Source: Desulfurispirillum indicum S5 (GTDB lineage: Bacteria > Chrysiogenota > Chrysiogenetes > Chrysiogenales > Chrysiogenaceae). From it: a stretch of 64,000 bases of DNA. Below, piece after piece: positions 41,984-58,890 of the stretch. The DNA is taken from the NCBI RefSeq assembly GCF_000177635.2, contig NC_014836.1, positions 1,500,001 through 1,564,000 of the forward strand, given 5' to 3'. How positions within the stretch are numbered: position 1 is the first letter of the stretch; each line of letters opens with the position of its first letter. Below the pieces are notes generated by a model that had not been told where the DNA came from, made no database searches, and saw nothing but the letters and a program-made list of their open reading frames with translations. A program made the translations under genes and the position numbers.

Positions 41984-42007
41984 TTGGTTTTTTCAGCAGC
42001 CTGCTAA
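41984..42007 (+). repeat. Dispersed repeat, end fragment (copy 1)
   Basis: The stretch TTTTTTCAGCAGCCTGCTAA matches the outer end of the repeat at 59325-59460, read on the opposite strand there, and the GCAGCCTGCTAA end of the copy at 45862-45912. It provides the TAG stop codon of hbd on the minus strand (42006-42004). Only this end of the element is present. Confidence 0.6.
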
Positions 42008-42849
42008 GGGTATGAATAAAATCCCTGACCACTCTTGCGGCCCAGTCGCCCGGCGGCCACCATCTGGGTGAGCAGCGGACACGGGCGGTACTTGCTGTCC
42101 TTGAAGCCGTCAAAGAGCACCTCCATGATCGAAAGCACCGTGTCAAGACCAATCAGATCCGCCAGTGCCAGCGGGCCCATGGGCTGATTGGTGCCAAGGC
42201 GCATGGCCAGGTCTATATCCTCTGCAGTGGCCACCCCCTCATGGAGAGTGCAGATGGCCTCGTTGATCATGGGAATCAGGATGCGGTTTACGATAAATCC
42301 GGGGTAATCGGCGGAGATGGCCACTTCCTTGTCCATGGATTCCACCAGCTGACGGGCACGGGAAAAGGTCTCTTCGGAAGTCCCCAGGCCACGGATGATT
42401 TCCACAAGGCCCATGACCGGCACGGGATTCATGAAGTGCAGGCCGATAAATCGTTCGGGGCGCCTGGTGTTGCTGGCCAGGCGCGTGATGGAGATGGAAG
42501 AAGTGTTGGAAGCGATAATCGCTTCCGGCTTGAGAATATCATCAAGGTGCTGCAGGGTTTCCAGCTTGGCCATGAATTTTTCTGTTACCGCTTCTATGGC
42601 AATATCACAGGACTGAAATTCCTTCAGGGAACGGGTGCACCCTATACGCCCGAGAATCGGTCGAATGGCGTTTTCTTCCAGCTTGCCCTTCTCCACCTGA
42701 CGGATCAGGTTTTTTTCAATGCCCGCGACACACCGCTTCAACTGCTCTTCACTCATATCGTGAATGATAACCTTATATCCGTACTGAGCACACACCTGGG
42801 CGATTCCACTGCCCATCTGCCCCGCGCCGACAACTCCGATATACTGCAT
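42004..42849 (-). CDS. hbd: 3-hydroxybutyryl-CoA dehydrogenase
   Basis: 281 residues. The NAD-binding motif is VVGAGQMGSGIAQVCAQYG, the catalytic region is FIGLHFMNPVPVMGLVEII, and the C-terminal HCDH domain ends RKSGQGFYSYP. It oxidises 3-hydroxybutyryl-CoA to acetoacetyl-CoA. Good SD (AGGAGCAGGAT) before ATG. The final TAG codon lies in a dispersed repeat. Confidence 0.95.
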   Translation of the reverse strand: MQYIGVVGAGQMGSGIAQVCAQYGYKVIIHDMSEEQLKRCVAGIEKNLIRQVEKGKLEENAIRPILGRIGCTRSLKEFQSCDIAIEAVTEKFMAKLETLQHLDDILKPEAIIASNTSSISITRLASNTRRPERFIGLHFMNPVPVMGLVEIIRGLGTSEETFSRARQLVESMDKEVAISADYPGFIVNRILIPMINEAICTLHEGVATAEDIDLAMRLGTNQPMGPLALADLIGLDTVLSIMEVLFDGFKDSKYRPCPLLTQMVAAGRLGRKSGQGFYSYP

Positions 42850-42858
42850 ATCCTGCTC

Positions 42859-44037
42859 CTACACCCGTTCAAATATGGCGGCAACCGCCTCGCCCCCGCC
42901 AATGCACAGGGTAGCCAGTCCATAGCGAAGGCCTTCGCGTTTCATTTCATGGAGCAGGGTTCCGGCAATGCGGGCACCACTGGCACCGACAGGATGACCG
43001 ATGGAAACCGCTCCCCCATTGACATTCATTTTTGCCAGATCTATGCCCAGGGACTTCATCACCATGAGTGGAACCGCAGAAAATGCTTCGTTGACCTCGA
43101 AGAGATCGATATCTCCTGTCTTCAACCCCGCCAGAGCGCAGGCCCTTTCGATAGCCCCTATGGGCGCCTCAGCAAAGCGATCGGGATGGGTACTGAAGGT
43201 GGTGTAGGCCACAAGGCGTCCAAGTGGCTGCAAAGCGTGCCGTTGCACCGAGTCCTCGTCAGCCAGCAGCGCCATGGCCGCACCATCATTGATCGTCGAG
43301 GCGTTGGCTGCCGTGATGGTGCCTTCTTTGGAAAAGACCGGTTTCAGCCCTTCAATCTTTTCGAAGACCACTTTGAAGGGCTCCTCGTCATCGGAGATCA
43401 GCTTTTCCCCCTTACGCACAGCCTTGAGAATGGGAACCATCTCCTCAAAAAAGCGGCCGTCGCGGGTCGCCGACTGGGATCGCTCATAGGAGCAGATGGC
43501 ATACTTGTCCTGTTCCTGACGGGAGATACGATGGTGTTTTATGAGTTCTTCCGTCACCAGCCCCATATGACGGCCGCTGTACGGGTCGATAAGGGCGTCA
43601 TGGAGCATCAGATCAACGGATTGTACCGCGCCCATGCGCGCACCGAACCGCATGGATGGAAGAGCGTAAGGGCTCATGGACATATTCTCCATACCCCCGG
43701 CCATCACCAGTGACGAGTCACCCAGGCGAATGGCATCGGCCCCGAGCATGATCGCCTTCAAACCACTCCCGCAAACCTTGTTCACCGTCAGCGCCGGAAC
43801 ACTGTCAGGTACCTCCGCAGCGCGCATGGCCTGACGTGCCGGGGCCTGCCCGGCTCCACCGGTCAGCACCTGACCGATGATCACCTGGCTGACCTGCTCC
43901 CCCTCAAGGCCCGCCTCGGTCAGCATACAGCGCATGACCGTTGCCGCCAGTTCTGGAGCGGGCATATCCGACAACTGGCCGCCAAAACTGCCAAAGGGCG
44001 TCCTTCGTGCATCTACAACATATACTGTTTCGTTCAT
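42859..44037 (-). CDS. atoB: Acetyl-CoA acetyltransferase (thiolase)
   Basis: 392 residues. Catalytic Cys in VNKVCGSGLKAIMLG, His in GHPVGASGARI and the second Cys in LCIGGGEAVA show a complete thiolase. It cleaves acetoacetyl-CoA into two acetyl-CoA. It is the first gene of the run through hbd, crotonase, acdA and etf genes. Its promoter region contains a perfect-arm LiuR-type operator 15 nt before the ATG. Confidence 0.95.
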   Translation of the reverse strand: MNETVYVVDARRTPFGSFGGQLSDMPAPELAATVMRCMLTEAGLEGEQVSQVIIGQVLTGGAGQAPARQAMRAAEVPDSVPALTVNKVCGSGLKAIMLGADAIRLGDSSLVMAGGMENMSMSPYALPSMRFGARMGAVQSVDLMLHDALIDPYSGRHMGLVTEELIKHHRISRQEQDKYAICSYERSQSATRDGRFFEEMVPILKAVRKGEKLISDDEEPFKVVFEKIEGLKPVFSKEGTITAANASTINDGAAMALLADEDSVQRHALQPLGRLVAYTTFSTHPDRFAEAPIGAIERACALAGLKTGDIDLFEVNEAFSAVPLMVMKSLGIDLAKMNVNGGAVSIGHPVGASGARIAGTLLHEMKREGLRYGLATLCIGGGEAVAAIFERV

Positions 44038-44051
44038 AGCACCACCACTCT

Positions 44052-44091
44052 TTTACGTTCACGTAATACACAGGGCATCATTTTCCAGCAA
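44052..44091 (-). promoter_or_regulatory. Promoter and LiuR-like operator of the thiolase/Etf operon (site A)
   Basis: Minus strand: TTGCTG (44091-44086) and TATTAC (44068-44063) are 17 bp apart. The -10 lies inside an inverted repeat with exact arms, TTACGT-TC-ACGTAA (44053-44066 on the plus strand). The same TTTACGT half-site recurs at four other places in the window. MerR/LiuR regulators of acyl-CoA and branched-chain catabolism bind sequences of this kind. Repression is inferred. Confidence 0.6.
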
Positions 44092-44101
44092 CCTCCATCA
44101 C

Positions 44102-44578
44102 TTACCGCTCTCGGTTTTTGCGAAAATACAGCGTTTTATTCACTACGGCATGCTCAACGTGGTCATGGTCACAGAGGCTGATCCGATAGACGCGATCCAG
44201 GGAGTGCGCTGACTCCAGCTCCCTGCGGATATACTCAAGCTCCGCGTCTTCAATGGAGAACTCAGCGTACAGCGTTGTCCTGCCAGGTTTAAGAAATGCG
44301 ATTTCAGCAGACTTGTCCCACACCACATACGCTTTCCCGAGCAGGCGCATGAACATCACCATGTACACCGGGTCAACGGCGGCAAACATGGAACCGCCAA
44401 AAAGCGTTCCCACAGCATTGCGCGTCCAGATATTCAAAGGCAGCTTCACCTTCACCCGTTTCCAGTCGTGGGATATGAACACCACCCGCGCGCCGGTTCG
44501 GCGATAGGCAGGAAAGATATTGAAGGCCAGTCGCGCCAGTTTTGACTTCCATGATTCGCGCAGGTTTTCCATATGCAT
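44102..44578 (-). CDS. DUF4442-family hotdog protein (putative thioesterase)
   Basis: 158 residues. The sequence RVVFISHDWKRVKVKLPLNIWTRNAVGTLFGGSMFAAVDPVY is the typical DUF4442/YiiD-C hotdog core, which resembles acyl-CoA thioesterases. The substrate is unknown. Start ATG 44578 or 44572; no SD is visible, and the promoter at 44586-44614 would place the transcript start almost on the ATG, so it may be leaderless. It precedes the thiolase gene. Confidence 0.8.
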   Translation of the reverse strand: MHMENLRESWKSKLARLAFNIFPAYRRTGARVVFISHDWKRVKVKLPLNIWTRNAVGTLFGGSMFAAVDPVYMVMFMRLLGKAYVVWDKSAEIAFLKPGRTTLYAEFSIEDAELEYIRRELESAHSLDRVYRISLCDHDHVEHAVVNKTLYFRKNRER

Positions 44579-44683: not shown

Positions 44684-44710
44684 TTGACAACTTCGCCATG
44701 GAGTGATAAC
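44684..44710 (+). promoter_or_regulatory. Possible promoter of the MerR/LiuR-like gene
   Basis: TTGACA at 44684-44689 is followed after 15 bp by GATAAC (44705-44710), about 31 nt before the ATG. The spacer is short for sigma70, so this is tentative. The operator-like site C lies just downstream, between this promoter and the start codon. Confidence 0.35.
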
Positions 44711-44721
44711 TTGCAGAAAAT

Positions 44722-44737
44722 CTTACGTAAAGGTAAT
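44722..44737 (+). promoter_or_regulatory. LiuR-like operator overlapping the merR SD (site C)
   Basis: TTACGT-AA-AGGTAA (44723-44736) is an inverted repeat with one mismatch per arm pair. It shares the TTACGT half-site of the other sites. Its second arm coincides with the AAAGG ribosome binding site of the regulator gene, four nt before the ATG. This suggests autoregulation, which is inferred. Confidence 0.5.
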
Positions 44738-44740
44738 TCA

Positions 44741-45151
44741 ATGCCAACTCAGAAAAGTGACCTCATCCCCATCGGCGAAGTCGCAAATCAATTGGGAATA
44801 ACCACCAGGACCATCCGTTATTACGAGGAAATCGGCCTGATGGGCTGCCCTGAGCGACTCAGCGGCAACACTCGCATGTACGGTCGCCCCGACATACTGC
44901 GACTGAAATTCATCCTGAAGCTCAAGGAGCTCGGCATCACCCTGAAGGAAATGCAGGAACTGGCGGAGAACTTCGACGTCCACAATCAGGATTTTGCCAC
45001 CATTACGCCGAAGCTGCTCGACATACTCGACAGCCATATCAACAAAGTCGATGAAAAGATCGCGAAACTCAGTTCACTGCGCAAGGAAGTCGTCGAGTAT
45101 CGCGCGCGCATCGTGGACATTCTCAAAGGAAAAACGCAACCCATACAATAA
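44741..45151 (+). CDS. MerR-family regulator, LiuR-like
   Basis: About 136 residues from ATG 44741, with AAAGG seven nt upstream; a longer TTG frame is rejected. The MerR HTH is complete (IPIGEVANQLGITTRTIRYYEEIGLM), the wing is NTRMYGRPDILRLKFILKLKELG, and a coiled-coil dimerisation helix follows (about 85-130). There is no metal-binding Cys cluster, so it is not a metal sensor. LiuR-type members of this family repress leucine/fatty-acid catabolic genes. Operator-like sites at neighbouring beta-oxidation promoters support that here. Effector probably an acyl-CoA, by inference. Co-transcribed with the downstream thioesterase. Confidence 0.88.
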   Translation: MPTQKSDLIPIGEVANQLGITTRTIRYYEEIGLMGCPERLSGNTRMYGRPDILRLKFILKLKELGITLKEMQELAENFDVHNQDFATITPKLLDILDSHINKVDEKIAKLSSLRKEVVEYRARIVDILKGKTQPIQ

Positions 45152-45176
45152 CCCGTGGATTCACCGGAGGATCATA

Positions 45177-45578
45177 ATGTCTTTTCAGTACCCTGTGCAA
45201 ATGCGGTTTTCTGATATTGACGCTTACGGTCATGTCAATAACGCTGTTTTCTTTACCTACCTGGAGACAGCCCGCACCAACTTCTTCCTTCAGTCGTTCC
45301 GCCACTTCCTTGACCAGGGGCTGCTCTTTCTGGTCGCCCATGCAGAATGTACCTACCGCAAGCCCATCCCGCTCTGTGAATCGGTGAACATCGACATGGA
45401 TATCGCCCACATTGGCCGCAGCAGCTTTACGATCACCTACCGCATTCATGACGGAACCTCCCTCTACGCTGAAGCCAAAACCACAATGGTCTGCCTCGAA
45501 AAACAGTCGGGCAAACCCGTGTCCATTCCCGAAGAGCTGCGTACCCTGCTGACAGAGCATCTGACCGCACCAGCCTGA
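45177..45578 (+). CDS. Acyl-CoA thioesterase, 4HBT/YbgC-like hotdog
   Basis: 133 residues from ATG 45177, with GGAGG six nt upstream, 25 nt after the regulator stop. The 4HBT signature is VQMRFSDIDAYGHVNNAVFFTYLE, with the Asp in DAYGHVNN positioned like the catalytic Asp of 4-hydroxybenzoyl-CoA thioesterases. It hydrolyses acyl-CoA thioesters in the cytoplasm. Co-transcription with the LiuR-like regulator suggests it releases CoA during fatty-acid catabolism. Confidence 0.9.
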   Translation: MSFQYPVQMRFSDIDAYGHVNNAVFFTYLETARTNFFLQSFRHFLDQGLLFLVAHAECTYRKPIPLCESVNIDMDIAHIGRSSFTITYRIHDGTSLYAEAKTTMVCLEKQSGKPVSIPEELRTLLTEHLTAPA

Positions 45579-45861: not shown

Positions 45862-45912
45862 GCAGGCAATTGAAAATCCACAGGTGCAAGGCGCCTGCAG
45901 AGCAGCCTGCTA
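45862..45912 (+). repeat. Dispersed repeat, short copy with both ends (copy 2)
   Basis: GCAGGCAATTGAAAA, then CAGGTGCAAGGCGC, match one end of the longer copy at 59325-59460 (opposite strand). The other end GCAGCCTGCTAA matches copy 1. The central part is missing. Ends form GCAGGC/GCCTGC inverted repeats. The terminal CTA gives the TAG stop of the adjacent minus-strand gene. Confidence 0.7.
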
Positions 45913-46461
45913 AAGTCCCAGCATTCCTCGCTTCAGGCTGGGGTCAGCCGGAGTATGGCCTAGGTAGATCCCCAGGATGCCTTTCGCCAGTTCAGGGTTT
46001 CGCAGGGAACCCAGTACGGTTCCATTCTGCAGGGCGGTGATGGTTCCATCGCGCAGCAACCGCAATTCCACCTGATCACCCCGGACAAAATCCTGAGTGA
46101 ACCAATCAAGGAACGCGACCGTGTCTGCCTGTGCGGCCATTTCGGGTGAATTGTTTCGCAGCCCTGCCTCAAAGGCTTCCACGATATTCTGTTTGCCGAC
46201 CCTGCGATGGAGGAAGTCCATGCGTATGATCTTGCCAGCTGGCTCGTTTACGGCTTCCTGGAAACTGCGCACGGAAGCAGCGGTGTACAGTGAGCCAATG
46301 TAGATATCGAAAATCATGCGTTTACGCACTCCATATCCGTTCAACTTCAACTCATCATTCTCCAGGGTCACAACCGCGGGCAGACGCACTCCGGCAACCT
46401 CCACAGCACCGGCACCTGTTCCGGTCAGCAGAATCAGCAGTACGATTGACAGAACTCTCAT
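45910..46461 (-). CDS. Chalcone isomerase-like exported protein
   Basis: About 183 residues from ATG 46461, which has GAGAG upstream; a longer frame into the next gene is rejected. An N-terminal signal peptide (about 1-20, ending GAGAVEVAG) precedes a chalcone-isomerase-like domain: LKLNGYGVRKRMIFDIYIGSLY ... KIIRMDFLHRRVGKQNIVEAF ... LGHTPADPSLKRGML. Bacterial members of this fold are periplasmic and thought to bind fatty acids rather than isomerise flavonoids. That fits the surrounding lipid genes. The stop codon is supplied by a dispersed repeat. Confidence 0.85.
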   Translation of the reverse strand: MRVLSIVLLILLTGTGAGAVEVAGVRLPAVVTLENDELKLNGYGVRKRMIFDIYIGSLYTAASVRSFQEAVNEPAGKIIRMDFLHRRVGKQNIVEAFEAGLRNNSPEMAAQADTVAFLDWFTQDFVRGDQVELRLLRDGTITALQNGTVLGSLRNPELAKGILGIYLGHTPADPSLKRGMLGL

Positions 46462-46507
46462 GACTCTCTCCCTCACATGTTCTTCAGTTTCACCATACAT
46501 CAGACCC

Positions 46508-47029
46508 CTACTCAACCCGGGTTCTCACCAGCTCCCAGCTCTTGACCTGCCAGGTGATGAATCCCGTCGCCACCAACCTGTCATCCTGGTCGTACACGCG
46601 TGTCTGCACCTGTCGCTGGACCACACCGTCTGTCTGAAGCGGTCTGAGAAATTCTTCGGCAATCTGCTGCTCCGTCAGATCGGTAACGGCCCGCAGACGA
46701 CTTTTCGCCTGATAGGCATACTCCACTTCCAGACGCGCCATAATCAGGCGAAACCGGGAAGGGTCTATATGGCTCAGCAGGGTTATGCCCGAAGAAAATT
46801 CGGCGATGGTGGCAATGGCACAGGCGTGTATGCCACGGATATGGTTGAAATTATTGCGCCTATAGGGCGCTGTGGTCATAATGCCCTTCTCGTCAATACT
46901 GAGGATGCAGAAGCCGTGGGGCCGGTTAAAGGGGATCATCCTCCCAAGCACCAGGTTCAGCACCCACAACCAGAATTTCGAGTGCCGGGCGCGCCCCAGC
47001 AGTGTACGCAACAGAGCAAATCCTTTCAT
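46508..47029 (-). CDS. Second DUF4442-family hotdog protein
   Basis: 173 residues. The region MIPFNRPHGFCILSIDEKGIMTTAPYRRNNFNHIRGIHACAIATIAEFSSGITLLS matches DUF4442 thioesterase-like proteins. It shares this family with the protein encoded at 44102-44578 but is clearly divergent. The ATG overlaps the fusion-protein gene stop, with GGGAGG upstream. The substrate is unknown. Confidence 0.82.
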   Translation of the reverse strand: MKGFALLRTLLGRARHSKFWLWVLNLVLGRMIPFNRPHGFCILSIDEKGIMTTAPYRRNNFNHIRGIHACAIATIAEFSSGITLLSHIDPSRFRLIMARLEVEYAYQAKSRLRAVTDLTEQQIAEEFLRPLQTDGVVQRQVQTRVYDQDDRLVATGFITWQVKSWELVRTRVE

Positions 47030-50016
47030 TACACTTTCCTCCCGGCTGCAAAGCCTTGATGTACAGCGTCAATAACCATGGCCGGTTCATGGGCGTCTCC
47101 CACCACATGGCAGGCAATGTGCTGCTGTGATGCCAGGGTCTGCAGACCGCGCACACTGCGACTGCCCACTGCCAGCACCACGGTATCCGCTGCCAGCAGC
47201 TGACTGCCCGAAGATCCACTGACGCGCACGCTGGCCTCTTCGATCTGCTCCACGTTCGTCTGGGTGAGGGTGCGAATGCCAAAGCGTTGCAGATCCTGCA
47301 GCATGGTCCAGCGGGTCGTCTTGCCAAAGTTGCGTCCGAGCTTGTCTGTGGCTTCAACGATGGTGATATCCTTCTCGCCTCGGGTCGCCATGCGCAGCAG
47401 TTCTACGGGTTCCTCAGCGCGATGGGCCAGCAGGAATTTCAACTCCTCACCGCTGAGCGTGCCGGACTCGGCCAGCAGCAGGGCGGTTTCGATTCCCACC
47501 GCGCCACCGCCGATGATCACGACCCTTCGGCCCGCTTGGGCTTTACCACAGAGCACATCCCACGCCTGAACAACATGGGGTTTTTCGGCACCGGCGATTT
47601 TTGGCAGCACCGGCTGCGCACCGGTGGCCACGATCAGAACATCGGGGCGCTGGGCTTTCAGCAGTTCCTCATCCACTTCGCGGTTGAGGTGCACCTCCAC
47701 CCGCTGGCGACTGAGTTGATGGGCAAGATCCTTCGCCAACTGTACAAACTCTTCGCGTCCCGGTGGAGCCCCGGCCAGGAGTAACTGTCCACCGAGCCGT
47801 GAGCCCTTCTCGCAGAGCAGTACCCGATGTCCACGGCGCCCGGCTGCCAGCGCGGCACTCATGCCCGCAGGGCCACCACCGGCCACCAGTACCCTGCGCG
47901 GGGTTTCCGCTGGCTCCAGCATGGTCTCCAGCTCATGGCCCGCCTCGGGATTGCACAGGCACTCCACCGATTTCATCTTGAAGAGATTGTCAAAACAGCC
48001 CTGACCGCAGGCCACACAGTGAATGATCTCCCGCTCGCGGCCGGTCGCCGCTTTGCGGGGCAGCCAGGGGTCGGCAATCAACGCGCGCCCCATGGCCACC
48101 ATATCGCACATGCCCTGCCCAAGCAGCCTGCGCGCTGTCGCAGGATCGTTGATACGATGGCTGGCAATGACGGGAATCCCCACAAGGGTGCGTATTTCAC
48201 GGGCCAAATAGGCGAAGGCACCCCGTGGCACCTTGGTAATTATCTGCGGAACCTGGGCTTCATGCCAGCCCACATTGACACAGATGGCATCGACCCCGAC
48301 GGCCTCGAGAGCCAGGGCGAAGGTCTGCAGGTCGCGGCGACCGATACCACCGGGCATAAAGTCGTTGCCGTTGAGACGCACCATCACCGGATAGGCATTT
48401 CCCGTGGCCTCCTTGACGGCACGCACCACCTCCAGGCCAAAGCGCATGCGATTCTCCAGGCTTCCTCCGTATTCATCCTGACGTTGATTGGTCAGGGGTG
48501 AGAGAAACTCGCTGATGAGATATCCGGTTCCCGCCAGAATCTCCACGGCATCAAAGCCCGCCTCACGGATCCGCGCGGCACTGCTGGCAAAGCGACCAAC
48601 GATGTCCTGAATCTCCTGGGCGCTGAGTTCGCGGGGCGTCTCGCCGGTAAGCCGCGATGCCACTGGCGACGGAGCCACGGGTTTTTTGCCGCCCAGCAGC
48701 ATGGAGTGGTTGTAACGTCCAGCATGGTTGATCTGCACGGCACTGCGGGCACCATGCTCCTGAATGGCCAGGGCCAGGCGACGCAGTCCTTCCACATACC
48801 GGTCATCGTGGGCACCTATATTACCGGGATTACCGGAAAGCTCGTCCACGGTGGCATATCCGACACAGATCAGGCCTGCCCCGCCCTTGGCACGCTCGGA
48901 ATAAAAGGCCACCAGGGCATCAGTCACCTGGTAGTTGCGACACATGTTCATGTGCATGGCCGGCATGCAGATGCGATTGGGGATTTCCATGGTGCCAATC
49001 TGCACCGGCGTGAAGAGGATATCTTCAGCAGTATCTGTTTCCGTAAGGCACTGGGAGGCTTTGGGCGCGGGCCCGCTGGATTCGAAGAGGCTTGCGAACT
49101 CGGCGGCCACCGGCTCCAGCAGGCCACTGTTTTCCAGCGCGCGCCGCAGGGGTTCGGGCTCCTGCAGGAAGTCCTGCATGAAGACGACTTCCGAGGCCTT
49201 CAGATACTTGTGAAACGGGTCTTTGAGGGTGGAGCCGAAGAGCTCTTCGATGATGGCCACCACGCTGGGACGATCCATGAGGGGCAGCAGGCGACGCGCC
49301 CGTTCCAGCAGTTTGGAGACATAGAAGAGGATGGTGTCATCCACACCGCTGATGCGGGTGCGGTGGCCGGGGTAAATCTCCTTACCCCGCAGTGTCGCCA
49401 GTTTGCCGATGGTTTCGCTGTAGGCATGGTAGTTGTGGAAACGCCCTCCACTTTCCAGATCCACGTCCAGCAGGGGTGACTGGAAGATTCCCTGGAGGAG
49501 GGTATCGCCGGTGACAGCCCAGTCGCTTCCCACATACACCAGGTCACTCTGGGAGTGTCCCGGACAGGGGAGAACCTCGAACCCCAGACGCGCGGGCAGA
49601 TCCGATTCCTCGAGAATACGGTACTCCTCAGGCACCCGGGGGAAAATGGTTCCCTCATCCATGGAGTCCCGGAACTGCTTCACATAGGCAGGGCTGAAAC
49701 CCAGACTGCCCAGCAGGTCTCCCAGGCCATCCAGCCACTCGCCGTGGCGGGTAATCTTAAGGCTGTCGCGATAGGGGAGCCATATCTGGGCGGGACTGTT
49801 CTCCTGCAGCCACGAGGCCAGGCCGTAGTGGTCGATATGGCAGTGGGTAATGATCACATGGCGCAGGCGCTCCAGATCCATATGTTCCTGGAAGTAGCGC
49901 TGAGCTGCCGGAGTAGGGGGACCGCTGTCGAAGAGAATGATCTCGCCATCGGTTTCCATACTGTAGCAGTGCACCTCACCGGCAATGTAGGGTGTGTCTA
50001 TGGAGTGTTGTTGCAT
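47029..50016 (-). CDS. Fusion: metallo-beta-lactamase hydrolase + OYE/2,4-dienoyl-CoA reductase
   Basis: 995 residues in three parts. Residues 1-310 are an MBL-fold hydrolase with a complete metal site: HCHIDH (58-63), His 154, Asp 171 and His 218. Residues about 335-690 are an OYE TIM barrel (TPVQIGTMEIPNRICMPAM, LSPLTNQRQDEYGGSLENR, VMVRLNGNDFMPGG). A 4Fe-4S motif CVACGQGCFDN ... CLCN follows. Residues about 705-995 hold FAD (LVAGGGPAGMSAALAAGRRG) and NAD(P) (VVIIGGGAVGIETALLL) sites. The OYE-FAD half resembles FadH, needed to reduce 2,4-dienoyl-CoA from unsaturated acids. An N-terminal MBL domain is not part of that enzyme. It is separated from fadE by a strong terminator. Confidence 0.92.
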   Translation of the reverse strand: MQQHSIDTPYIAGEVHCYSMETDGEIILFDSGPPTPAAQRYFQEHMDLERLRHVIITHCHIDHYGLASWLQENSPAQIWLPYRDSLKITRHGEWLDGLGDLLGSLGFSPAYVKQFRDSMDEGTIFPRVPEEYRILEESDLPARLGFEVLPCPGHSQSDLVYVGSDWAVTGDTLLQGIFQSPLLDVDLESGGRFHNYHAYSETIGKLATLRGKEIYPGHRTRISGVDDTILFYVSKLLERARRLLPLMDRPSVVAIIEELFGSTLKDPFHKYLKASEVVFMQDFLQEPEPLRRALENSGLLEPVAAEFASLFESSGPAPKASQCLTETDTAEDILFTPVQIGTMEIPNRICMPAMHMNMCRNYQVTDALVAFYSERAKGGAGLICVGYATVDELSGNPGNIGAHDDRYVEGLRRLALAIQEHGARSAVQINHAGRYNHSMLLGGKKPVAPSPVASRLTGETPRELSAQEIQDIVGRFASSAARIREAGFDAVEILAGTGYLISEFLSPLTNQRQDEYGGSLENRMRFGLEVVRAVKEATGNAYPVMVRLNGNDFMPGGIGRRDLQTFALALEAVGVDAICVNVGWHEAQVPQIITKVPRGAFAYLAREIRTLVGIPVIASHRINDPATARRLLGQGMCDMVAMGRALIADPWLPRKAATGREREIIHCVACGQGCFDNLFKMKSVECLCNPEAGHELETMLEPAETPRRVLVAGGGPAGMSAALAAGRRGHRVLLCEKGSRLGGQLLLAGAPPGREEFVQLAKDLAHQLSRQRVEVHLNREVDEELLKAQRPDVLIVATGAQPVLPKIAGAEKPHVVQAWDVLCGKAQAGRRVVIIGGGAVGIETALLLAESGTLSGEELKFLLAHRAEEPVELLRMATRGEKDITIVEATDKLGRNFGKTTRWTMLQDLQRFGIRTLTQTNVEQIEEASVRVSGSSGSQLLAADTVVLAVGSRSVRGLQTLASQQHIACHVVGDAHEPAMVIDAVHQGFAAGRKV

Positions 50017-50111: not shown

Positions 50112-51890
50112 TCAGAAGATATACTTTTCCTGTTCAATGGCAGTTGCCGCCAGGGCACGCTTGGCCTGCAGCAACCCGGTAGCGTCGTACTTGGCAAAGC
50201 GTCGGATACCGGAAAGGATCATGGTCAGCGTATCACCCTCCTCCGCATAGAAGGCACCGCGCTGCGCGGCTGCTCCCGCTGCTTCACAGGCGCTGAAGGC
50301 GCAGATCTTCAGGGTTGCCGCCATCAGTTCCTTCTTCTGGGCGCTGATCTGGCTGGACTGGGCCTTCTCCACCCGCTTCAGTACGCTCTCCAGAGCGAAA
50401 ATCTGAATGCAGAGGTCGGCGGCGGCCAGCAGAATCTCCTGCTCATCCTGAAGCTTGTCCATGTACTTCTGTACCGCCGCACCGGAGAGGATCAGGAAGA
50501 GGTTTTTCAGGTTCTTCACCAGCTGCTTCTCACGGGCAAAGGGGTCATTTTCGTCAAGCTCTTCGAAGGAAGGAGTCATCAGCTGTTCAAAGGCTTTCAT
50601 GGCTTCACTCTGCAGGGGAAGCTCTCCCTTCATGGCCTTGCGCAGGATCATGCCGGGAACCAGCAGACGGTTGATTTCGTTGGTTCCTTCAAAGATCCGG
50701 TTAATGCGCTCATCTCGGTAAAAACGCTCTGCCGGATATTCACTGACAAACCCGTAACCACCGTGAATCTGCAGCACTTCGTCGACGGTTCGCGCCAGCA
50801 CCTCGCTGCAGAAGACCTTGGCGATACCGCATTCGGGAGCATACTCCTCAATGCCCTTCTGATACTCTTCGTAATAATTGTCAATGCCCTTCTCAATGGT
50901 GGCCAGCTTGTTATCCAGCAGGCCGGCCAGACGATAGATCAGGCTTTCGGCGGCGAAGATATCAGCGGTCATATTGGCAATCTTTTCGCTGATGGCACCA
51001 AAGGAGCTGATGGGCCTGCCGAACTGCTTGCGCTCATTGGCATACTTGATGCCCTCCTGCAAAGCCATCTTGGCCGCGCCGCTCACGGCGGCACCCAGCT
51101 TGAAGCGGCCCACATTGAGGACGTTAAAGGCAATTTTATGGCCCTTGCCGATCTCTCCCAGCAGGTTTTCCACGGGGATCCTGCAGTTATTGAGAATAAC
51201 CTGGGTGGTGGAAGAGCCCTTGATGCCGAGTTTCTTCTCCTCGGCGCCAATCTCCAGCCCTTCAAAATCCTTTTCCACCAGGAACGCGGTGAAGTGCTCC
51301 TTGTCGATCTTGGCGAAGACCGTAAAGAGCTGGGCAAAACCGCCATTGGTGATGAACTGTTTGGTGCCGTTGAGGATGTAGTACTTGCCATCCTCGGACA
51401 GCACGGCCGTGGCCTGAGCGCCCAGGGCGTCGGAACCGGAACCAGGCTCGGTCAGGCAGTAGGCGGACATCCACTCGCCGGTGATGATTCGGGACAGGTA
51501 GCGCTCTTTCTGCTCCGCTGTGCCATAGTAGATGAGGGGCAGCGTGCCGATGCCGGTATGGGCGGCAAAGGCCACCGAAAAGCTGCCGGCGGGAGCAATT
51601 TTCTCCGCCACCAGCATGCTGGTGGCCTTGTCCAGCTCCAGTCCGCCCTCTTCCTCGGAGGCGTCGGTCATCAGGAGGCCAAGCTCACCAGCTTTGCCCA
51701 TCAGCTCCACGACCAGATCAAAGTTCTGCTGTTCGATCTCGTCAATATGGGGAATGACATCGTTGGTGACAAACTGCTGCGTGGTATCGGCAATCTGTCG
51801 CTGCTCATCGGTAAAGTCTTCGGGAGTAAAGATATCTGCGGGATCCATCTCGGTGATCAGGTATTCGCCGCCTTTGAAAATTCGTGCCAT
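50112..51890 (-). CDS. fadE: Long-type acyl-CoA dehydrogenase (FadE)
   Basis: 592 residues. The usual ACAD core (YCLTEPGSGSDALGAQA, ILNGTKQFITNGGFAQ, catalytic Glu in RIFEGTNEINRLLVPGM) is followed by an extra C-terminal domain of about 180 residues. This is the architecture of Bacillus FadE-type enzymes rather than the 380-residue short-chain form encoded at 39971-41119. It starts long-chain beta-oxidation and donates electrons to Etf. GAGGT lies five nt before ATG. Confidence 0.93.
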   Translation of the reverse strand: MARIFKGGEYLITEMDPADIFTPEDFTDEQRQIADTTQQFVTNDVIPHIDEIEQQNFDLVVELMGKAGELGLLMTDASEEEGGLELDKATSMLVAEKIAPAGSFSVAFAAHTGIGTLPLIYYGTAEQKERYLSRIITGEWMSAYCLTEPGSGSDALGAQATAVLSEDGKYYILNGTKQFITNGGFAQLFTVFAKIDKEHFTAFLVEKDFEGLEIGAEEKKLGIKGSSTTQVILNNCRIPVENLLGEIGKGHKIAFNVLNVGRFKLGAAVSGAAKMALQEGIKYANERKQFGRPISSFGAISEKIANMTADIFAAESLIYRLAGLLDNKLATIEKGIDNYYEEYQKGIEEYAPECGIAKVFCSEVLARTVDEVLQIHGGYGFVSEYPAERFYRDERINRIFEGTNEINRLLVPGMILRKAMKGELPLQSEAMKAFEQLMTPSFEELDENDPFAREKQLVKNLKNLFLILSGAAVQKYMDKLQDEQEILLAAADLCIQIFALESVLKRVEKAQSSQISAQKKELMAATLKICAFSACEAAGAAAQRGAFYAEEGDTLTMILSGIRRFAKYDATGLLQAKRALAATAIEQEKYIF

Positions 51891-51964: not shown

Positions 51965-53137
51965 CTACAGGCGCTCAAAGATACCTGCTGCGCCCATGCC
52001 GCCGCCAATACACATGGAAACCATGCCGAAGCGTTCCTTGCGGCGTCCCATTTCGGCCAGCAGTGTGGCGGTGAGCTTGGCGCCGGAACAGCCCAGGGGA
52101 TGGCCCAGGGCAATGGCTCCACCATTGACGTTGATGATGTCCGGGTTCAGTCCGAGTTCGCGCACCACGGCCAGCGACTGGGCGGCAAAGGCCTCGTTGA
52201 GCTCAATGAGCCCCAGGTCGCTCTGTTTCAGGCCGGCCATTGCCAGGGCAGCGGGAATGGCCGCCACGGGGCCGATTCCCATGATCTCCGGTGCCACTCC
52301 CCGTACGACAAAACTGACATAACGGGCAATGGGGTCCTTGGATATCTTCTTCAGGTACGCTTCGGAAACCACCAGGGCCACAGCGGCCCCATCGGTCATC
52401 TGCGAAGAGTTGCCGGCGGTAACCGATCCTCCCATGCGGAAGACGGGCTTCAGCTTTGCCAGGCCCTCCAGGGTAGTATCCGCCCGCACACCATCGTCAA
52501 CACTGACCACTTCCTTCTTTCTCTGCACCTTGCTGCCAGCCAGGCTCACCTGCTCCACTTCCACGGGCAGAATCTCATCCGTGAAGCGCCCGGAGGCGAT
52601 GGCATCGGCGGCCTTTCGATGGCTGGCCACCGCAAAGGCGTCCTGGTCTTCGCGGCCGATGTTGAACTGCTCGGCTACTTTCTCTGCGGTTATGCCCATG
52701 GAGGCGTAGGCTTCGGGCCAGTTGCTCACCAGATCGGGGTTGGCGCTGTACTTGTTTCCGCCCATGGGAACCATGGTCATGGACTCGGCACCGCCGGCGA
52801 TAATGCAGTCACCAAAGCCGGCCATGATGCGCTCCGCTGCCTGAGCAATGGTCTGCAGGCCCGAAGAACAGAAACGGTTCACCGTCTGACCAGGCACCTG
52901 GTAGGGCAGCCCCGCCTTCATGGCAGCCACACGGGCAAAGTTCATGCCCTGTTCGCCCTCGGGAAAGGCGCAGCCGAGGATAATATCTTCCACATCGTTT
53001 CCATCAATACCCGTGCGCTCCACCAGCCCTTTGATAGCGGCGGCGGCCAGATCGTCGGGGCGCATGTCCTTGAACATGCCTTTTTTCGCGCGGCAGCCGG
53101 GAGTCCGGTAGGCCGCCAGTATGTATGCTGTCTTCAT
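51965..53137 (-). CDS. fadA: 3-ketoacyl-CoA thiolase (FadA)
   Basis: 390 residues. Active-site Cys in VNRFCSSGLQTIAQ, His in GHPLGCSGAKL and Cys in MCIGGGMGAAG give a complete degradative thiolase. Paired with FadN directly upstream (13 nt gap, AGGAGG before ATG). It cleaves 3-ketoacyl-CoA to acetyl-CoA and a shortened acyl-CoA. Confidence 0.95.
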   Translation of the reverse strand: MKTAYILAAYRTPGCRAKKGMFKDMRPDDLAAAAIKGLVERTGIDGNDVEDIILGCAFPEGEQGMNFARVAAMKAGLPYQVPGQTVNRFCSSGLQTIAQAAERIMAGFGDCIIAGGAESMTMVPMGGNKYSANPDLVSNWPEAYASMGITAEKVAEQFNIGREDQDAFAVASHRKAADAIASGRFTDEILPVEVEQVSLAGSKVQRKKEVVSVDDGVRADTTLEGLAKLKPVFRMGGSVTAGNSSQMTDGAAVALVVSEAYLKKISKDPIARYVSFVVRGVAPEIMGIGPVAAIPAALAMAGLKQSDLGLIELNEAFAAQSLAVVRELGLNPDIINVNGGAIALGHPLGCSGAKLTATLLAEMGRRKERFGMVSMCIGGGMGAAGIFERL

Positions 53138-53150: not shown

Positions 53151-55538
53151 TCAGTTGCGTAATGGCTTGCCTTTTTTCAACATGTGCTGAACACGTTCCA
53201 CCGTCTTTTTATTGCCGCAGAGCTTCAGGAAGCCTTCACGCTCCAGATCCAGCAGATACTGTTCGCTGATGGGTGTTCCCGCAGGCACATCACCACCGCA
53301 GATGACATCGGCAATCACACTGCCCATGACGGCTTCGTATTCTGTGGCAAACCCACCCTGAGCCATATTCCACAGCTGGCTCTTGATGCTGGCGGCAACA
53401 CTGCGGCCAGGCGCGGGGATATTCTCCAGTGGTTTAGCGGGACGGTAGGTGCGGGCCAGGCTCTGAACCTTGCTCTTGGCATCGGCCACCAGACGATCGA
53501 TGTTCATGGAGATGGAGTCGCCCTGGCGCAGGTACCCCATGCCAAAAGCCTCTGCGGCTCCCATGGAAACTTTGGCCATGCCGATATTCTGGAAATTCTT
53601 GAAGATGAAGGGGGAGACATCCGTATCAAACTGCTGGGCCAGGCTTACAGCCCGCAGACACATCTCCTTGGTGCCGCCACCGGCGGGCAGCAGGCCGACA
53701 CCCACTTCCACCAGGCCCATGTAGGTTTCGGCGTGGGCGTTTATGGCGTCGCCATGGAGGGCGAATTCACAGCCACCGCCCAGCGTCATCCCAAAGGGCG
53801 CCACCACCACGGGAACCCGCGAGTACTTGACGGCCATGGTGGCCTGCTGGAAGGCCTTGACGACCATGGCGACGTCATCGTAGGCACCTTCGGCCAGCGC
53901 CACGGCCAGCATCATCAGGTTGGCACCGACCGAGAAGTTGGCACCCTGGTTGGTGATCACTAGGCCAACCCCTTCGCTCTCAGCCCGTTTGATGGCCTTG
54001 TGGGTCATGGAGAGAATATCACCGCTGAGGGCATTCATCTTGGAGTGGAACTCAAAGGCGAACACGCCATCACCCAGATCCACGATGGAGCAGTTGCTGT
54101 TCTTCTCCACCACCGCTCCGGCCCGTCGCAGGATATCAAAGTGGATATGCTCTGGGTCCATGGGAACTTCGCGGTACTGTCCGCTCTGGATGTCGTAGTA
54201 GAGGCGGGTGGCGCCTTCAAACCGGTAGAAGCTTTCGATCTTCTCCAGGGCAGCCGGCACGGCGACTCCGTCGGCCTTGGCCCGCTTGACAAATTCTGCC
54301 ACGCCGATGGCGTCAAACATCTCAAAGGGACCGATCTCCCAGTTGAAGCCCCAGCGCATGGCATTGTCCACGTTGACAATATCATCGGCGATTTCAGGAA
54401 TGCGGTTGAAGGTGTAGATCAGCGTGTCGCGCATGCTCTTCCAGGCGAACTCGGCGCCCTTATCACTGCCGTTGACCACCATTTTGAGGCGCTGCGCCGG
54501 GTCGTCAACCTGCTTGACCGCATCCACGGAACCAAAGCGGGGGCGCTCGGAGGGCTTGTATTCGCCACTGATGTAGTCATAGTAGAAGACCTTTGAACCG
54601 CCCTCTCCCTTTTCCTTGCGGTAGAAACCACCCTTGGTCTTGTTGCCCAGCAGCCCCTTGTCGATCATGGCGCGCAGGAAATCGGGCACCTGGAAGACAT
54701 CCCGCTCTTCGTCATTCACCAGTACGTCATAGGAGTTGGAACCCACATGGGCCAGGGTGTCATTACCCACCAAATCAGCAGTACGGAATGCGGCACTTTT
54801 GGGCCGGGCGGTGGCGGTTCCGGCGACGGCGTCTACCTCTTCCACGCTCATGCCCATGTCCAGCATGTGACGCATGGATTTAAAGATGGCGTACACGCCA
54901 ATGCGGTTGGCGATAAAATTCGGAGTATCCTTAGCCGAGACAATGCCCTTGCCGAGGCTCTTGCCCAGGAAAGTTGACATTGAGCTCAGCAGCTCGGGGT
55001 CCGTATCACTGCAGCCCACAATTTCCAGCAGGCGCATGTAACGGGGTGGGTTGAAGAAGTGGGTCACCAGGAAATTCCGGCGCACTTCCATGGGCAGTAC
55101 ACTGGCCAGCTCGTTGACGGAGAGGCCGCTGGTGTTGGTGGACAGAATGGCTCCCGCTGACAGATTCGGCACGACCTTTTCCGTGAAGAACTGCTTCTTG
55201 ATCGCCATATTTTCGATAATCACCTCAATGACCCAGTCGCACTCCCGGAGTCGACCCATATCGTCTTCGAAGTTGCCGGTTTCGATGCGCCGGGCATCTT
55301 CCTTCAAATAGAACGGCGCGGGCTTCATCTTCAGCAGCCCTTCATAACCGCCACGGACGATGCGATTGCGCACTGTGGCGCTCTCCACGCTGAGGCCACT
55401 GGCTTTTTCCGCCTCGCTGGCTTCACGGGGCGCGATGTCAAGCAACAGCACATCGAACCCTCCATTGACCAAATGGGCAGCAATGGTGGCACCCATCACA
55501 CCCGAACCGAGCACGGCTACCCTTCTGATTTGCCTCAT
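53151..55538 (-). CDS. fadN: 3-hydroxyacyl-CoA dehydrogenase/enoyl-CoA hydratase (FadN type)
   Basis: About 795 residues from ATG 55538, which has GGAGG five nt upstream; ATG 55550 is less well placed. The order is NAD-binding domain first (VAVLGSGVMGATIAAHLVNGG, THFFNPPRYMRLLEIV), HCDH domains (about 190-430), then a crotonase domain last (SVGANLMMLAVALAEG, FGMTLGGGCEFALHGD, GVGLLPAGGGTKEM). This is the FadN order seen in Bacillus and the reverse of E. coli FadB. It supplies hydration and NAD-dependent oxidation of long acyl-CoA. Confidence 0.94.
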   Translation of the reverse strand: MRQIRRVAVLGSGVMGATIAAHLVNGGFDVLLLDIAPREASEAEKASGLSVESATVRNRIVRGGYEGLLKMKPAPFYLKEDARRIETGNFEDDMGRLRECDWVIEVIIENMAIKKQFFTEKVVPNLSAGAILSTNTSGLSVNELASVLPMEVRRNFLVTHFFNPPRYMRLLEIVGCSDTDPELLSSMSTFLGKSLGKGIVSAKDTPNFIANRIGVYAIFKSMRHMLDMGMSVEEVDAVAGTATARPKSAAFRTADLVGNDTLAHVGSNSYDVLVNDEERDVFQVPDFLRAMIDKGLLGNKTKGGFYRKEKGEGGSKVFYYDYISGEYKPSERPRFGSVDAVKQVDDPAQRLKMVVNGSDKGAEFAWKSMRDTLIYTFNRIPEIADDIVNVDNAMRWGFNWEIGPFEMFDAIGVAEFVKRAKADGVAVPAALEKIESFYRFEGATRLYYDIQSGQYREVPMDPEHIHFDILRRAGAVVEKNSNCSIVDLGDGVFAFEFHSKMNALSGDILSMTHKAIKRAESEGVGLVITNQGANFSVGANLMMLAVALAEGAYDDVAMVVKAFQQATMAVKYSRVPVVVAPFGMTLGGGCEFALHGDAINAHAETYMGLVEVGVGLLPAGGGTKEMCLRAVSLAQQFDTDVSPFIFKNFQNIGMAKVSMGAAEAFGMGYLRQGDSISMNIDRLVADAKSKVQSLARTYRPAKPLENIPAPGRSVAASIKSQLWNMAQGGFATEYEAVMGSVIADVICGGDVPAGTPISEQYLLDLEREGFLKLCGNKKTVERVQHMLKKGKPLRN

Positions 55539-55592
55539 GTTTTCCTCCATATACGCATAGTTTCTCTGTTCACTGGCCTGTATTCATTCAGT

Positions 55593-57428
55593 TTACTTCT
55601 GAGCGTTGCCATTGCCGTTACCGTTGGCGTCGAACATGCCCTCAATGCTGACCCGATACTTCTCGGCAATGACCTTGCGCTTGAGCTTCAGGGTCGGCGT
55701 GAGCTCGCCATCTTCGATGGAGAAGTCGCGGGGCAGAATGACGAATTTTTTGATGGTCTCGTAGGAGGGCAGCTTCGCGTTCACATCGCGCACCCGCTCT
55801 TCAAAGAGCTTATGAACTTTTTTATGGGTAACCAGGTCGCGAATTTCGATATAGTTCAGCTTTTTGTCCTGGGCGAATTCCAGCAGCCGCTCAACATTGG
55901 GCGTCAGGAGCGCTACCAGGTACGGCTTGCGATCGCCATACACAAACGCCTGGGAGATGTACTTGTCCAGCTTGAGTTCATTTTCAATCGGCTGGGGAGC
56001 CACATTCTTGCCACCAGCGGTGACAATGATCTCCTTTTTGCGATCGACGATATACACAAAGCCGTTTTCATCAATCCGCGCAATATCGCCGGTGTACAGC
56101 CAGCCATCGATGATCGTCTGGGCAGTGGCTTCAGGATTCTTGTAATACCCCTGCATCACCTGAGGGCCACGCACCAGCAGTTCACCGTCCTCGGCAGTTT
56201 TGACTTCCGTCTGATCCAGTACCTGACCCACAGAACCAAACCGGTTATCGGCAATGGTGTTCAGTGTCAGAGCCGGACTGGTTTCGGTGAGCCCATATCC
56301 TTCAAACACGGGAATCCCCACTGCCCACATAAATTCGTTGATGGTCTTGTCCAATGGAGCACCACCGGAAATAAAGAACCGCATGCGGCCGCCGAAGCGA
56401 GGCTTGATCTTGCTGAACACCAGGCGCTTCGCGAGCCCGTACTTCACGCCCAGCGAACCGACCGGTTGGTTTTCTATATAACGGCGATAGACGTACTGTT
56501 TGCCGACATCCACTGCCCAGTGGAACAGACTGCGTCGCACCGCCGGCGCCTGGTGCACATTTTCGTAAATCCGGGAATAGATCTTCTCAAAGAGCCTTGG
56601 CACACTGACCATGACCGTGGGACGAATCTCCTGAATATTCTCCACCACCTTGTCCACGTTTTCCGCAAAGGCCACATGGGCACCGTACATCAGCGGAGCA
56701 TGGTAGCCCGCCGTGCGCTCAAGAACGTGGCTCAGGGGCAGAAAGCTGAGGAAGACCTCGTCTTCCGCCATGCCACCAAGCTTCTGCACACCGGCGCAGG
56801 CGTCAAAAAGCATGTTGGAGTGCGTAAGCATGACACCCTTGGGTACACCCGTAGTACCGGAAGTGTAGATAACCGTAATCAGATCTTCAGGTGTGATCTG
56901 TGCTATCTCCTCTTCGAGCTCAACACGCTCTTCATCGGTCAGGGGATGGGATACTTCCGAAAGCTGCTGAAGGGTATTCACCGGCAGATCATCGGAGCCG
57001 AGGAACTGCTCAAAAGAGACCACCCGCTCCACATGGGGAATATTCTGCCGGATCTGCAGGATCTTCTCGTACTGCAACCGCGTGGAGACGAACACAATGC
57101 GCGATTCGGAGTGGTTGATCACATACTCTGCCTGCTCAGCTGTATTGGTGGCGTAGATAGGCACCGTTATGGCCCGCGCCGCCTGGACACCAAAGTCCGC
57201 AATTGCCCAACCGGTACGATTTTCCGAGAAAATCGCCACTCGGTCACCAGGCTTGATACCAGCCTTGCGCAACCCCCTGGAGGCCATCAGAATGCGATCA
57301 TAAAACTGCGCGTAGCTCAGCGTCACCCACTCACCACGCCGCTTGAAGGTCACCGCTGCCTTATGGGCATGGCGCTTCGCGTTCAATTGCAGGATTTTTA
57401 ATATGGAACCATATGACATCATATCCAT
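55593..57428 (-). CDS. Long-chain acyl-CoA synthetase
   Basis: 611 residues. AMP-binding motif YTSGTTGVPKGVMLTHSN and the ANL core (GYGLTETSPALTLN; GWLYTGDIARIDENGFVYIVDRKKEIIVTAGGKNV) are followed by the C-terminal subdomain up to about 595. A Gly/Asn-rich tail (NGNGNGN) ends the protein. It activates long-chain fatty acids with ATP and CoA. AGGAGG lies seven nt before ATG. First gene of the fad run, behind site D. Confidence 0.94.
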   Translation of the reverse strand: MDMMSYGSILKILQLNAKRHAHKAAVTFKRRGEWVTLSYAQFYDRILMASRGLRKAGIKPGDRVAIFSENRTGWAIADFGVQAARAITVPIYATNTAEQAEYVINHSESRIVFVSTRLQYEKILQIRQNIPHVERVVSFEQFLGSDDLPVNTLQQLSEVSHPLTDEERVELEEEIAQITPEDLITVIYTSGTTGVPKGVMLTHSNMLFDACAGVQKLGGMAEDEVFLSFLPLSHVLERTAGYHAPLMYGAHVAFAENVDKVVENIQEIRPTVMVSVPRLFEKIYSRIYENVHQAPAVRRSLFHWAVDVGKQYVYRRYIENQPVGSLGVKYGLAKRLVFSKIKPRFGGRMRFFISGGAPLDKTINEFMWAVGIPVFEGYGLTETSPALTLNTIADNRFGSVGQVLDQTEVKTAEDGELLVRGPQVMQGYYKNPEATAQTIIDGWLYTGDIARIDENGFVYIVDRKKEIIVTAGGKNVAPQPIENELKLDKYISQAFVYGDRKPYLVALLTPNVERLLEFAQDKKLNYIEIRDLVTHKKVHKLFEERVRDVNAKLPSYETIKKFVILPRDFSIEDGELTPTLKLKRKVIAEKYRVSIEGMFDANGNGNGNAQK

Positions 57429-57549: not shown

Positions 57550-58890
57550 TCAGAAGGAGTAGGTCAATGAAACACCGACAATGTTAATGGTGTTACTGTA
57601 CTCACCCCGCAAAGAACCTTTCAGGGTATTCTCGGGAACACTCTGCTGCTGGTCAATTTTTGCGTCCTTCACCATGAGGTGAGCGTAGCCCACATCAATA
57701 CCCATACGCTCATTCACCTGGTACCCAAGACCAACAGAAATCCAGGTGCGATCATTACCGGGGACCCGTGGCTGACGGGCCTGGGCATCGGGAATCGCCT
57801 CCTCGTCAAGGGCCAGGCCGGCGCGCAGAATCGTGCGTGGATTCAGGCGATACGTGGTTCCCACCGAATAGCGCATCTGATCTTCCCAGTCGAAGGTGGT
57901 GACACTGTCATCACGACCGTCACTGAACTGCACCCGCAGCTCATCAAAGGAGCTCCAGCCCATCCAGGTCACGTCAGCCATAACTGCCCAGTCGGGATTC
58001 ACCTGATGATGCACACTCAAGGAGGCACTATCGGGAACCTTGATCTTGGCCTTGGCGCTGCCGTTGGCAAAATTGGGCGAAGCGGCAATGGCGCCATCAA
58101 GAGCTGGATTTCCCGATATGGTTTCCGGAACTGTGAACTTGGCACTGCCGCTGGCCGTATAGCTGATGGTGGAACGATAGGCAAAACCCATGCGGGTCTG
58201 ATCGTTAAACTCATAGAGGAACCCGAAGTTAAACCCATAGCCGGTATCGTCCGCCTCCAGCACCACCTTGCCATCACGGTTATGCACCAGGGGAGCCAGT
58301 GCCTCGTTGTAACCAGATTGCGCATAGGCGATAGTCCCGAAATCTATGGCGTTGGAGAGCTCGGCATCCAGGTACTGCAGGCTCAGGCCGGCCCCGACAC
58401 TGAACTGATCATTGACGCGCCACGCGATGGACGGATTGACGTTCACGGTCATGAAATCCGATTTAATGGCATAGTAACGGCCATACCAGTCTTCCTTGTA
58501 ATCCGTGGCATTACCAAATGGCGCGTTAATCCCCAGTCCGACGTACAGACCATTCTCCAGCTCAACCACAGAGTAAAAGTTCGGCACAATCGTGTTCTGC
58601 CCAGGCTGCCCGCCAGTGCTTCCACCCGTCGTCGAACCATCGTCCTTAAACTTCAGATCAGGAACAATCAGCGTCATGCCACCAACAACCTGCTTCCCCT
58701 TCAGCAGCGTCATAGCCGCAGGGTTAAAATAAACCGTCGTTGCATCAGCACCAATAGCGGCACCCCCGGAATACGCGTTCCCAAGCCCGCTCACCCCCTG
58801 GGTCGTTATACCAAAACCTGCGCCATAAGCGTGGGTAATTCCACTGCACAGAAGCGCACTTACCGCAAACGCCATTCTCTTTCCACTCAT
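57550..58890 (-). CDS. fadL: Outer-membrane fatty acid transporter, FadL/OmpP1 family
   Basis: 446 residues. The signal peptide (about 1-24, ending YGA) is followed by the FadL N-terminal hatch sequence GFGITTQGVSGLGNAYSGGAA and NPAAMTLLKGKQ. The rest alternates in a 14-strand beta-barrel pattern and ends with an aromatic residue (SLTYSF). It brings hydrophobic compounds, here probably fatty acids, across the outer membrane. Its promoter has its own LiuR-like operator (site E). Confidence 0.94.
   Translation of the reverse strand: MSGKRMAFAVSALLCSGITHAYGAGFGITTQGVSGLGNAYSGGAAIGADATTVYFNPAAMTLLKGKQVVGGMTLIVPDLKFKDDGSTTGGSTGGQPGQNTIVPNFYSVVELENGLYVGLGINAPFGNATDYKEDWYGRYYAIKSDFMTVNVNPSIAWRVNDQFSVGAGLSLQYLDAELSNAIDFGTIAYAQSGYNEALAPLVHNRDGKVVLEADDTGYGFNFGFLYEFNDQTRMGFAYRSTISYTASGSAKFTVPETISGNPALDGAIAASPNFANGSAKAKIKVPDSASLSVHHQVNPDWAVMADVTWMGWSSFDELRVQFSDGRDDSVTTFDWEDQMRYSVGTTYRLNPRTILRAGLALDEEAIPDAQARQPRVPGNDRTWISVGLGYQVNERMGIDVGYAHLMVKDAKIDQQQSVPENTLKGSLRGEYSNTINIVGVSLTYSF

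Follow-up and report, generated by a model that had tools for sequence, protein, structure and literature searches.

A metallo-β-lactamase-type hydrolase fused to a FadH-like flavoprotein within a β-oxidation operon of Desulfurispirillum indicum S5

A 64,000-nucleotide stretch of the genome of Desulfurispirillum indicum S5 (NC_014836.1, positions 1,500,001 to 1,564,000; hereafter the window, in which all positions are counted from its first letter) contains a single ATG-started frame of 995 codons spanning a metallo-β-lactamase (MBL) domain and a reductase resembling FadH, the 2,4-dienoyl-CoA reductase of Escherichia coli (47029–50016, minus strand). The MBL–FadH fusion in D. indicum was confirmed. 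The protein consists of the MBL domain (residues 1–312), a linker predicted to be disordered (314–329), and a FadH-like Fe-S/FMN/FAD reductase (334–995); the Pfam matches were Lactamase_B (13–218, E 4.7e-21), Oxidored_FMN (334–662, E 1.2e-72), and Pyr_redox_2 (708–958, E 6.1e-30). A preliminary description of this DNA had spoken of a three-part fusion. The one-frame fusion stands, while "three-part" was overstated: because the old yellow enzyme (OYE) and FAD/NAD domains together are the ordinary layout of FadH, the event is a merger of two genes, not of three. Our preferred reading, in which we place middling confidence, is a lineage-specific merger of adjacent operon genes, the MBL half being an acyl-CoA thioesterase accessory to β-oxidation and tethered to FadH. 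The features of the fused gene were as follows:

47029..50016, minus strand: fused gene, 995 aa, MBL hydrolase and FadH-like Fe-S flavoprotein (open reading frame, Pfam, PDB match)
49081..50016, minus strand: MBL domain, residues 1–312, MBL fold with a C-terminal helical bundle (Pfam, alignment, predicted model with a mean predicted local distance difference test score, pLDDT, of 94.3)
49828..49845, minus strand: HxHxDH metal motif, residues 58–63 (invariant, 44/44)
49555..49557, minus strand: metal ligand H154 (invariant, 44/44)
49504..49506, minus strand: metal ligand D171 (invariant, 44/44; putative bridging role by analogy with D189 of MBLAC2)
49363..49365, minus strand: metal ligand H218 (invariant, 44/44)
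49024..49080, minus strand: linker, residues 313–331, at the site of the relatives' gene boundary (no start codon; pLDDT)
48031..49017, minus strand: OYE/FMN barrel, residues 334–662, with Y499 and H585, equivalent to Y166 and H252 of E. coli FadH (Pfam, alignment)
47959..48018, minus strand: 4Fe-4S cysteines C667, C670, C674, and C686 (aligned with C334, C337, C341, and C353 of FadH; 86/86 rows)
47032..47895, minus strand: FAD/NAD(P)H-binding part, residues 708–995 (Pfam, PDB match)

In the relatives, the ATG of the reductase immediately precedes a conserved (S/N/I)D-x-LF motif; the fused protein reads ...TETDTAEDILF at this site. Neither ATG, GTG, nor TTG was found between residues 305 and 337 of the fused frame, and none of seven Shine–Dalgarno (SD)-like motifs sought in the junction stretch was present; the reductase's own start codon has been lost. 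The linker holds residues without a counterpart in the nearest relatives. In the predicted full-length model, residues 314–329 had pLDDT below 50 and the predicted template modeling score (pTM) was 0.65, so the placement of the domains is uncertain; the model was built from 32 aligned rows, only 14 of which covered the MBL (13 read-through rows besides the fused protein itself), and it weakly suggests a beads-on-a-string arrangement of the two domains. A sequencing or assembly artefact is very improbable. The fusion was found in one genome only, and 14 of the 32 split pairs described below share a frame, so that a lost stop would join them; however, the start codon and SD-like motifs of the second gene are gone as well, the linker contains the extra residues just mentioned, and the excerpted genome report gives a finished genome with deep coverage on two platforms, >100x 454 and 222x Illumina (PMC3368425).

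To collect relatives, six exact 8-residue patterns taken from the fused protein were run against the species genomes of GTDB; of the 133 relatives found, the best 80 were kept, a sample that leans to close kin and leaves room for fusions in distant groups. None of these 80 loci was fused, in agreement with the earlier remark that FadH-like reductases carry no MBL domain. In 32 of the 80 loci, MBL and reductase were encoded by separate genes, the MBL gene coming immediately before the reductase gene, and 2 to 122 bases separated the MBL stop from the point where the conserved reductase domain begins. Nor did a fusion appear among the stronger matches listed for 395 genomes of the Desulfoprunum phylum, where the sole listed match of full length (G439) proved to be two genes, its halves being separated by a TGA and a fresh ATG start; another 49 genomes from the phylum of D. 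indicum contained no fusion either. On plasmids, 2431 records matched the fused protein, none covering 80% of it, and the MBL half alone matched 6 records at ≤28% identity. Among the relatives examined, the fusion is thus confined to the D. indicum lineage, a rarely seen form of an otherwise ordinary operon pair. No account of an MBL–FadH fusion or of an MBL in fad operons emerged from the PubMed Central searches, which mostly do not cover subscription journals.

Stop-codon readthrough or selenocysteine insertion joining both genes in the relatives was considered and rejected: relative to the first gene, the second lay in the three frames in 14, 9, and 9 of the 32 split loci, and the intervening stops were mixed (TGA 16, TAA 8, TAG 8). 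In Desulfatitalea, a second, distant OYE-FAD paralogue is encoded near the main one (L071:11234-13165, L103:6026-7957).

The MBL gene proved to be a member of the β-oxidation operon rather than a partner of the reductase. The order of the split operon is fadB-fadA-fadE-MBL-fadH. FadE preceded the MBL in 30 of the 32 split loci (within 350 nt in 28, at ~2.1 kb in 2), the contig beginning too near the MBL to tell in the remaining two, and FadB, FadA, and FadE were all present in 23. Conversely, 48 of the 80 reductase loci had no such MBL in the examined flank, and FadB, FadA, or FadE (>300 bits) was nearby in only 1 of them. The MBL was also encoded, at 34–39% identity, in 13 of those 49 genomes from the D. 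indicum phylum; it directly followed fadE in five and adjoined fadL in two (one of these being flanked on the other side by a YsiA-type TetR gene), and in none did the examined flank contain a reductase beside it. An MBL profile search of 297 genomes from the Geobacter argillaceus phylum gave matches at E 1e-50 or better in 5, with fadE directly upstream in all five and the reductase downstream in four. Ten genomes were also searched individually with the profile: the three with the operon scored E 1e-134 or better, whereas of the seven with an MBL-less reductase locus, five gave nothing at E 1e-10 or better and two gave only weak matches (~1e-13 to 1e-11). Since the MBL occurs next to fadE or fadL without the reductase, and all but one of the MBL-less reductase loci lack fadB, fadA, and fadE nearby, the MBL belongs to the operon and not to the reductase.

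These counts bear on substrate channelling, which the preliminary description had proposed and in which hydrolysis by the MBL would be an obligate step just before or after the reductase, acting on its substrate or its product. The fusion itself and the side-by-side position of the two genes at 32 of the 80 loci would agree with it. However, the MBL lacks an adjacent reductase in the examined flank in all 13 same-phylum genomes and in one of the five from the other phylum, the reductase does without the MBL in 48 of 80 loci, five of the seven genomes with such loci that were searched gave no MBL match at E 1e-10 or better, and the tether is predicted to be disordered. Channelling is therefore not supported, and we regard it as quite improbable. 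One locus (L150, G236:C42, 8031–8996) contains a fadD-B-A-E-MBL operon followed by a hydratase and an acyl-CoA dehydrogenase instead of the reductase.

In D. indicum, the same-strand order is fadL, fadD, fadB, fadA, fadE, the fusion, a DUF4442 gene, and a chalcone-isomerase-like gene; acyl-CoA genes lie on both sides of the fusion, which the preliminary description had already placed beside acyl-CoA enzymes:

57550..58890, minus strand: fadL-like outer-membrane fatty-acid transporter
55593..57428, minus strand: fadD-like acyl-CoA ligase
53151..55550, minus strand: fadB-like 3-hydroxyacyl-CoA dehydrogenase/enoyl-CoA hydratase
51965..53137, minus strand: fadA thiolase
50112..51890, minus strand: fadE acyl-CoA dehydrogenase, directly upstream of the fusion (NF058590, 858 bits, cut-off 600)
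46508..47029, minus strand: DUF4442 thioesterase-like gene, directly downstream of the fusion
45910..46515, minus strand: chalcone-isomerase-like gene

In many Geobacter-type loci, a homologue of the last gene follows the reductase. Beyond it, the stretches 36199–44578 and 44684–45578 hold a second β-oxidation set together with two divergent genes. The set has genes for a DUF4442 protein, thiolase, 3-hydroxyacyl-CoA dehydrogenase, enoyl-CoA hydratase, acyl-CoA dehydrogenase, an Fe-S CCG protein, and the alpha and beta subunits of electron transfer flavoprotein. Divergent from this set, on the opposite strand, are a MerR gene, which may regulate the locus, and a FadM/YbgC-type thioesterase gene.

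Neither half of the fused protein had an orthologue in two other genomes of the family of D. indicum; the matches were weak (best E 2.3e-10) and fell nearly all in the FAD part. FadB was represented by weak pieces at 29–33% identity in one of these genomes and was absent from the other. As the operon is absent from both, it was either gained in D. indicum or lost in its kin. The MBL tree and the reductase tree both placed the fused protein beside delta-proteobacterial sequences, from the same set of organisms, and the MBL-adjacent reductases formed one clade (35 rows: 33 adjacent, the D. indicum protein, and 1 other). Taken together, the two trees favour a gain of the operon. The DNA composition at the operon gave no clear sign of foreign origin. 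Elsewhere in the window, 61005–62659 has a match to a TrfA-like replication protein and a weak match of the nematode fatty-acid-binding type; the window end is A+T-richer (47% G+C at 60–64 kb) and may be a mobile piece.

By its ligands and modeled fold, the MBL half is most probably a di-metal metallohydrolase of the MBL superfamily. The complete ligand set claimed at the outset was borne out: H58, H60, D62, H63, H154, D171, and H218 are all present and are invariant in the 44 aligned sequences, where the other invariant residues include H16, Y18, N195, Y196, R239, K273, and E276. The protein is not of the flavodiiron type: the diiron motif of flavodiiron proteins, which also have a flavodoxin domain, is HxExD, whereas here it reads HCHIDH, and no flavodoxin domain was found in the Pfam search of the fused protein. 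The nearest folds to the MBL model were 2zo4, 5u8o, 8zxg, 6ao1, and 5i0p (Z 24.6–26.0, partly tied), with 2zo4 at Z 26.0 over 268 residues and a root-mean-square deviation of 3.2; their PDB titles name a paraoxonase or no tested function. LACTB2 (Z 18.8) and PqsE (Z ~18) were more distant and tied. The match lists were used for fold kinship only, absence of a family from them not being taken to exclude it, and fold kinship alone does not show the function of the MBL. Against three MBL members, none of the NCBIfam models reached its cut-off.

The top sequence with a solved structure in the MBL profile search was 8zxg, deposited as a paraoxonase (E 8.6e-19; Z 25.3 to the model). This, together with the position of the MBL next to the fatty-acid importer gene fadL in 2 of the 13 same-phylum loci, would suit cleavage of a non-thioester bond, such as a fatty-acid oxyester or a hydroxy-fatty-acid lactone, thereby supplying the operon with fatty acids. 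However, "paraoxonase" is the depositors' name, and the strongest neighbour of the MBL, fadE, acts on CoA thioesters; we consider this explanation unlikely. It is still less probable that the MBL half is mainly a regulator or an RNA hydrolase, like PqsE, a partner of RhlR, and LACTB2, an RNase. Their structural similarity to the model, the PDB titles naming an RhlR–PqsE complex, and the RNase activity of LACTB2 mentioned in the part of PMC7785958 drawn on here point in that direction; the full conservation of the metal ligands and the tie to fad operons in two phyla point away from it.

Hydrolysis of a thioester, one of the reactions suggested earlier, is the best available idea for the MBL, by its likeness to MBLAC2 and PqsE. 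Human MBLAC2 is reported to hydrolyze palmitoyl-CoA with a Km of 1.9 µM, to prefer C12–C18 chains, and to lose activity on D87A or H88A substitution (the Asp-His of the Zn2 site); it was threaded on 5I0P as the I-TASSER template (PMC7949124, in excerpt). Its seven metal ligands come in the same order as in the MBL half, and 5I0P is among the nearest folds of the latter; the likeness was drawn through the published ligand list, and MBLAC2 is S-palmitoylated and has no reductase. Pseudomonas PqsE is a 2-aminobenzoylacetyl-CoA thioesterase. Described in the cited part of PMC7785958 as a thioesterase on a CoA intermediate, it shares with the MBL half the C-terminal helices and, by profile, the HxHxDH region, but the identity is ~18% and PqsE acts in a quinolone pathway and binds RhlR.

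FadM and TesB are hotdog enzymes and not MBL enzymes; they resemble the MBL half only in the proposed role, the release of dead-end dienoyl acids, and D. indicum has its own FadM/YbgC-type gene at the locus. In E. coli, ~10% of oleate is reported to be converted to 3,5-tetradecadienoyl-CoA, which is hydrolyzed and excreted, with FadM and TesB as candidate thioesterases and fadM in the fad regulon (PMC9329746, in excerpt). The location of the MBL behind fadE and before the dienoyl-CoA reductase would suit such a release role. The function had been called new for this pathway; acyl-CoA hydrolysis in β-oxidation is known from the E. coli case, while the PubMed Central literature searched yielded no MBL-fold enzyme acting in this way.

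In its parts, the reductase half appears to work like FadH: it has the OYE barrel, the four Fe-S cysteines, and the FAD/NAD(P)H domain. Its identity with E. coli FadH (PDB 1ps9) was 35% over 658 aligned residues. Tyr166, His252, and Glu164 belong to the active site of E. coli FadH; the equivalent of the first, Y499, was kept in 86 of 86 rows, and that of the second, H585, in 83. E. coli FadH differs in having no MBL and in lying far from this clade in the tree. The reductase half was the sole Oxidored_FMN match in the D. indicum genome. Its best NCBIfam model was that of BaiCD, a bile-acid Fe-S flavoenzyme (NF041087), whose setting differs from the β-oxidation setting found here.

On the preferred reading, two adjacent genes of one β-oxidation operon merged in D. 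indicum. The MBL half would cleave fatty acyl-CoA thioesters, either removing acyl-CoAs that bring the cycle to a halt, such as conjugated or dienoyl-CoA dead ends, or freeing CoA. The reductase half would pass a hydride from NAD(P)H via FAD, the 4Fe-4S cluster, and FMN to the 4,5 double bond of 2,4-dienoyl-CoA. A flexible tether would fix the ratio of the halves and hold them together, and both could share a pool of unsaturated intermediates, reducing what is reducible and releasing the rest; the use of the tether may be only equal dosage. It should be noted that the thioesterase activity and its substrate are our inference, as are the use of dienoyl-CoA by the reductase and whatever advantage the tether may bring.

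Several observations weigh against this reading. The residue corresponding to FadH E164 is T497 in the fused protein (T in 81 of 86 rows), so that this half may be something other than a strict 2,4-dienoyl-CoA reductase, for which reason we keep the name "FadH-like". None of the best 25 NCBIfam models reached its cut-off with the reductase (526.9 bits against 825 for BaiCD, 491.7 against 793 for the mycofactocin OYE, and 455.8 against 750 for bilirubin reductase). The fold and ligands of the MBL fit many MBL hydrolases, its nearest sequence with a structure being the one named paraoxonase. The locus already contains thioesterase-like genes (two DUF4442, one FadM/YbgC-type), so that the MBL may seem redundant, and the electron donors named for strain S5 in the excerpted genome report are acetate, lactate, and pyruvate only (PMC3368425). 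Finally, 6 of the 13 same-phylum MBL loci had no fad-like neighbour in the examined flank (two lie at a contig end); the neighbours at four of them were genes for an Era-like GTPase and a RecO-like protein, for serine hydroxymethyltransferase and a protoglobin-like protein, for an Fe-S protein, and for a P-type ATPase and a nitroreductase-like protein, respectively.

The fusion points to an operon partner that is conserved across at least two phyla in an anaerobic fad operon and has no curated family name. We find the operon MBL itself more interesting than the fusion. Tentatively, and with more doubt than belief, we propose that this MBL is an unrecognised β-oxidation thioesterase of anaerobes, encoded after fadE in at least two phyla as a counterpart of FadM/TesB, and that D. 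indicum has welded it to the dienoyl-CoA reductase as a "reduce or release" enzyme on which the fate of unsaturated intermediates would depend. The fusion offers a natural pair for measuring what tethering does to an accessory β-oxidation step. If the MBL is a thioesterase, these anaerobic fatty-acid oxidizers would clear stalled acyl-CoA with a chemically different enzyme.

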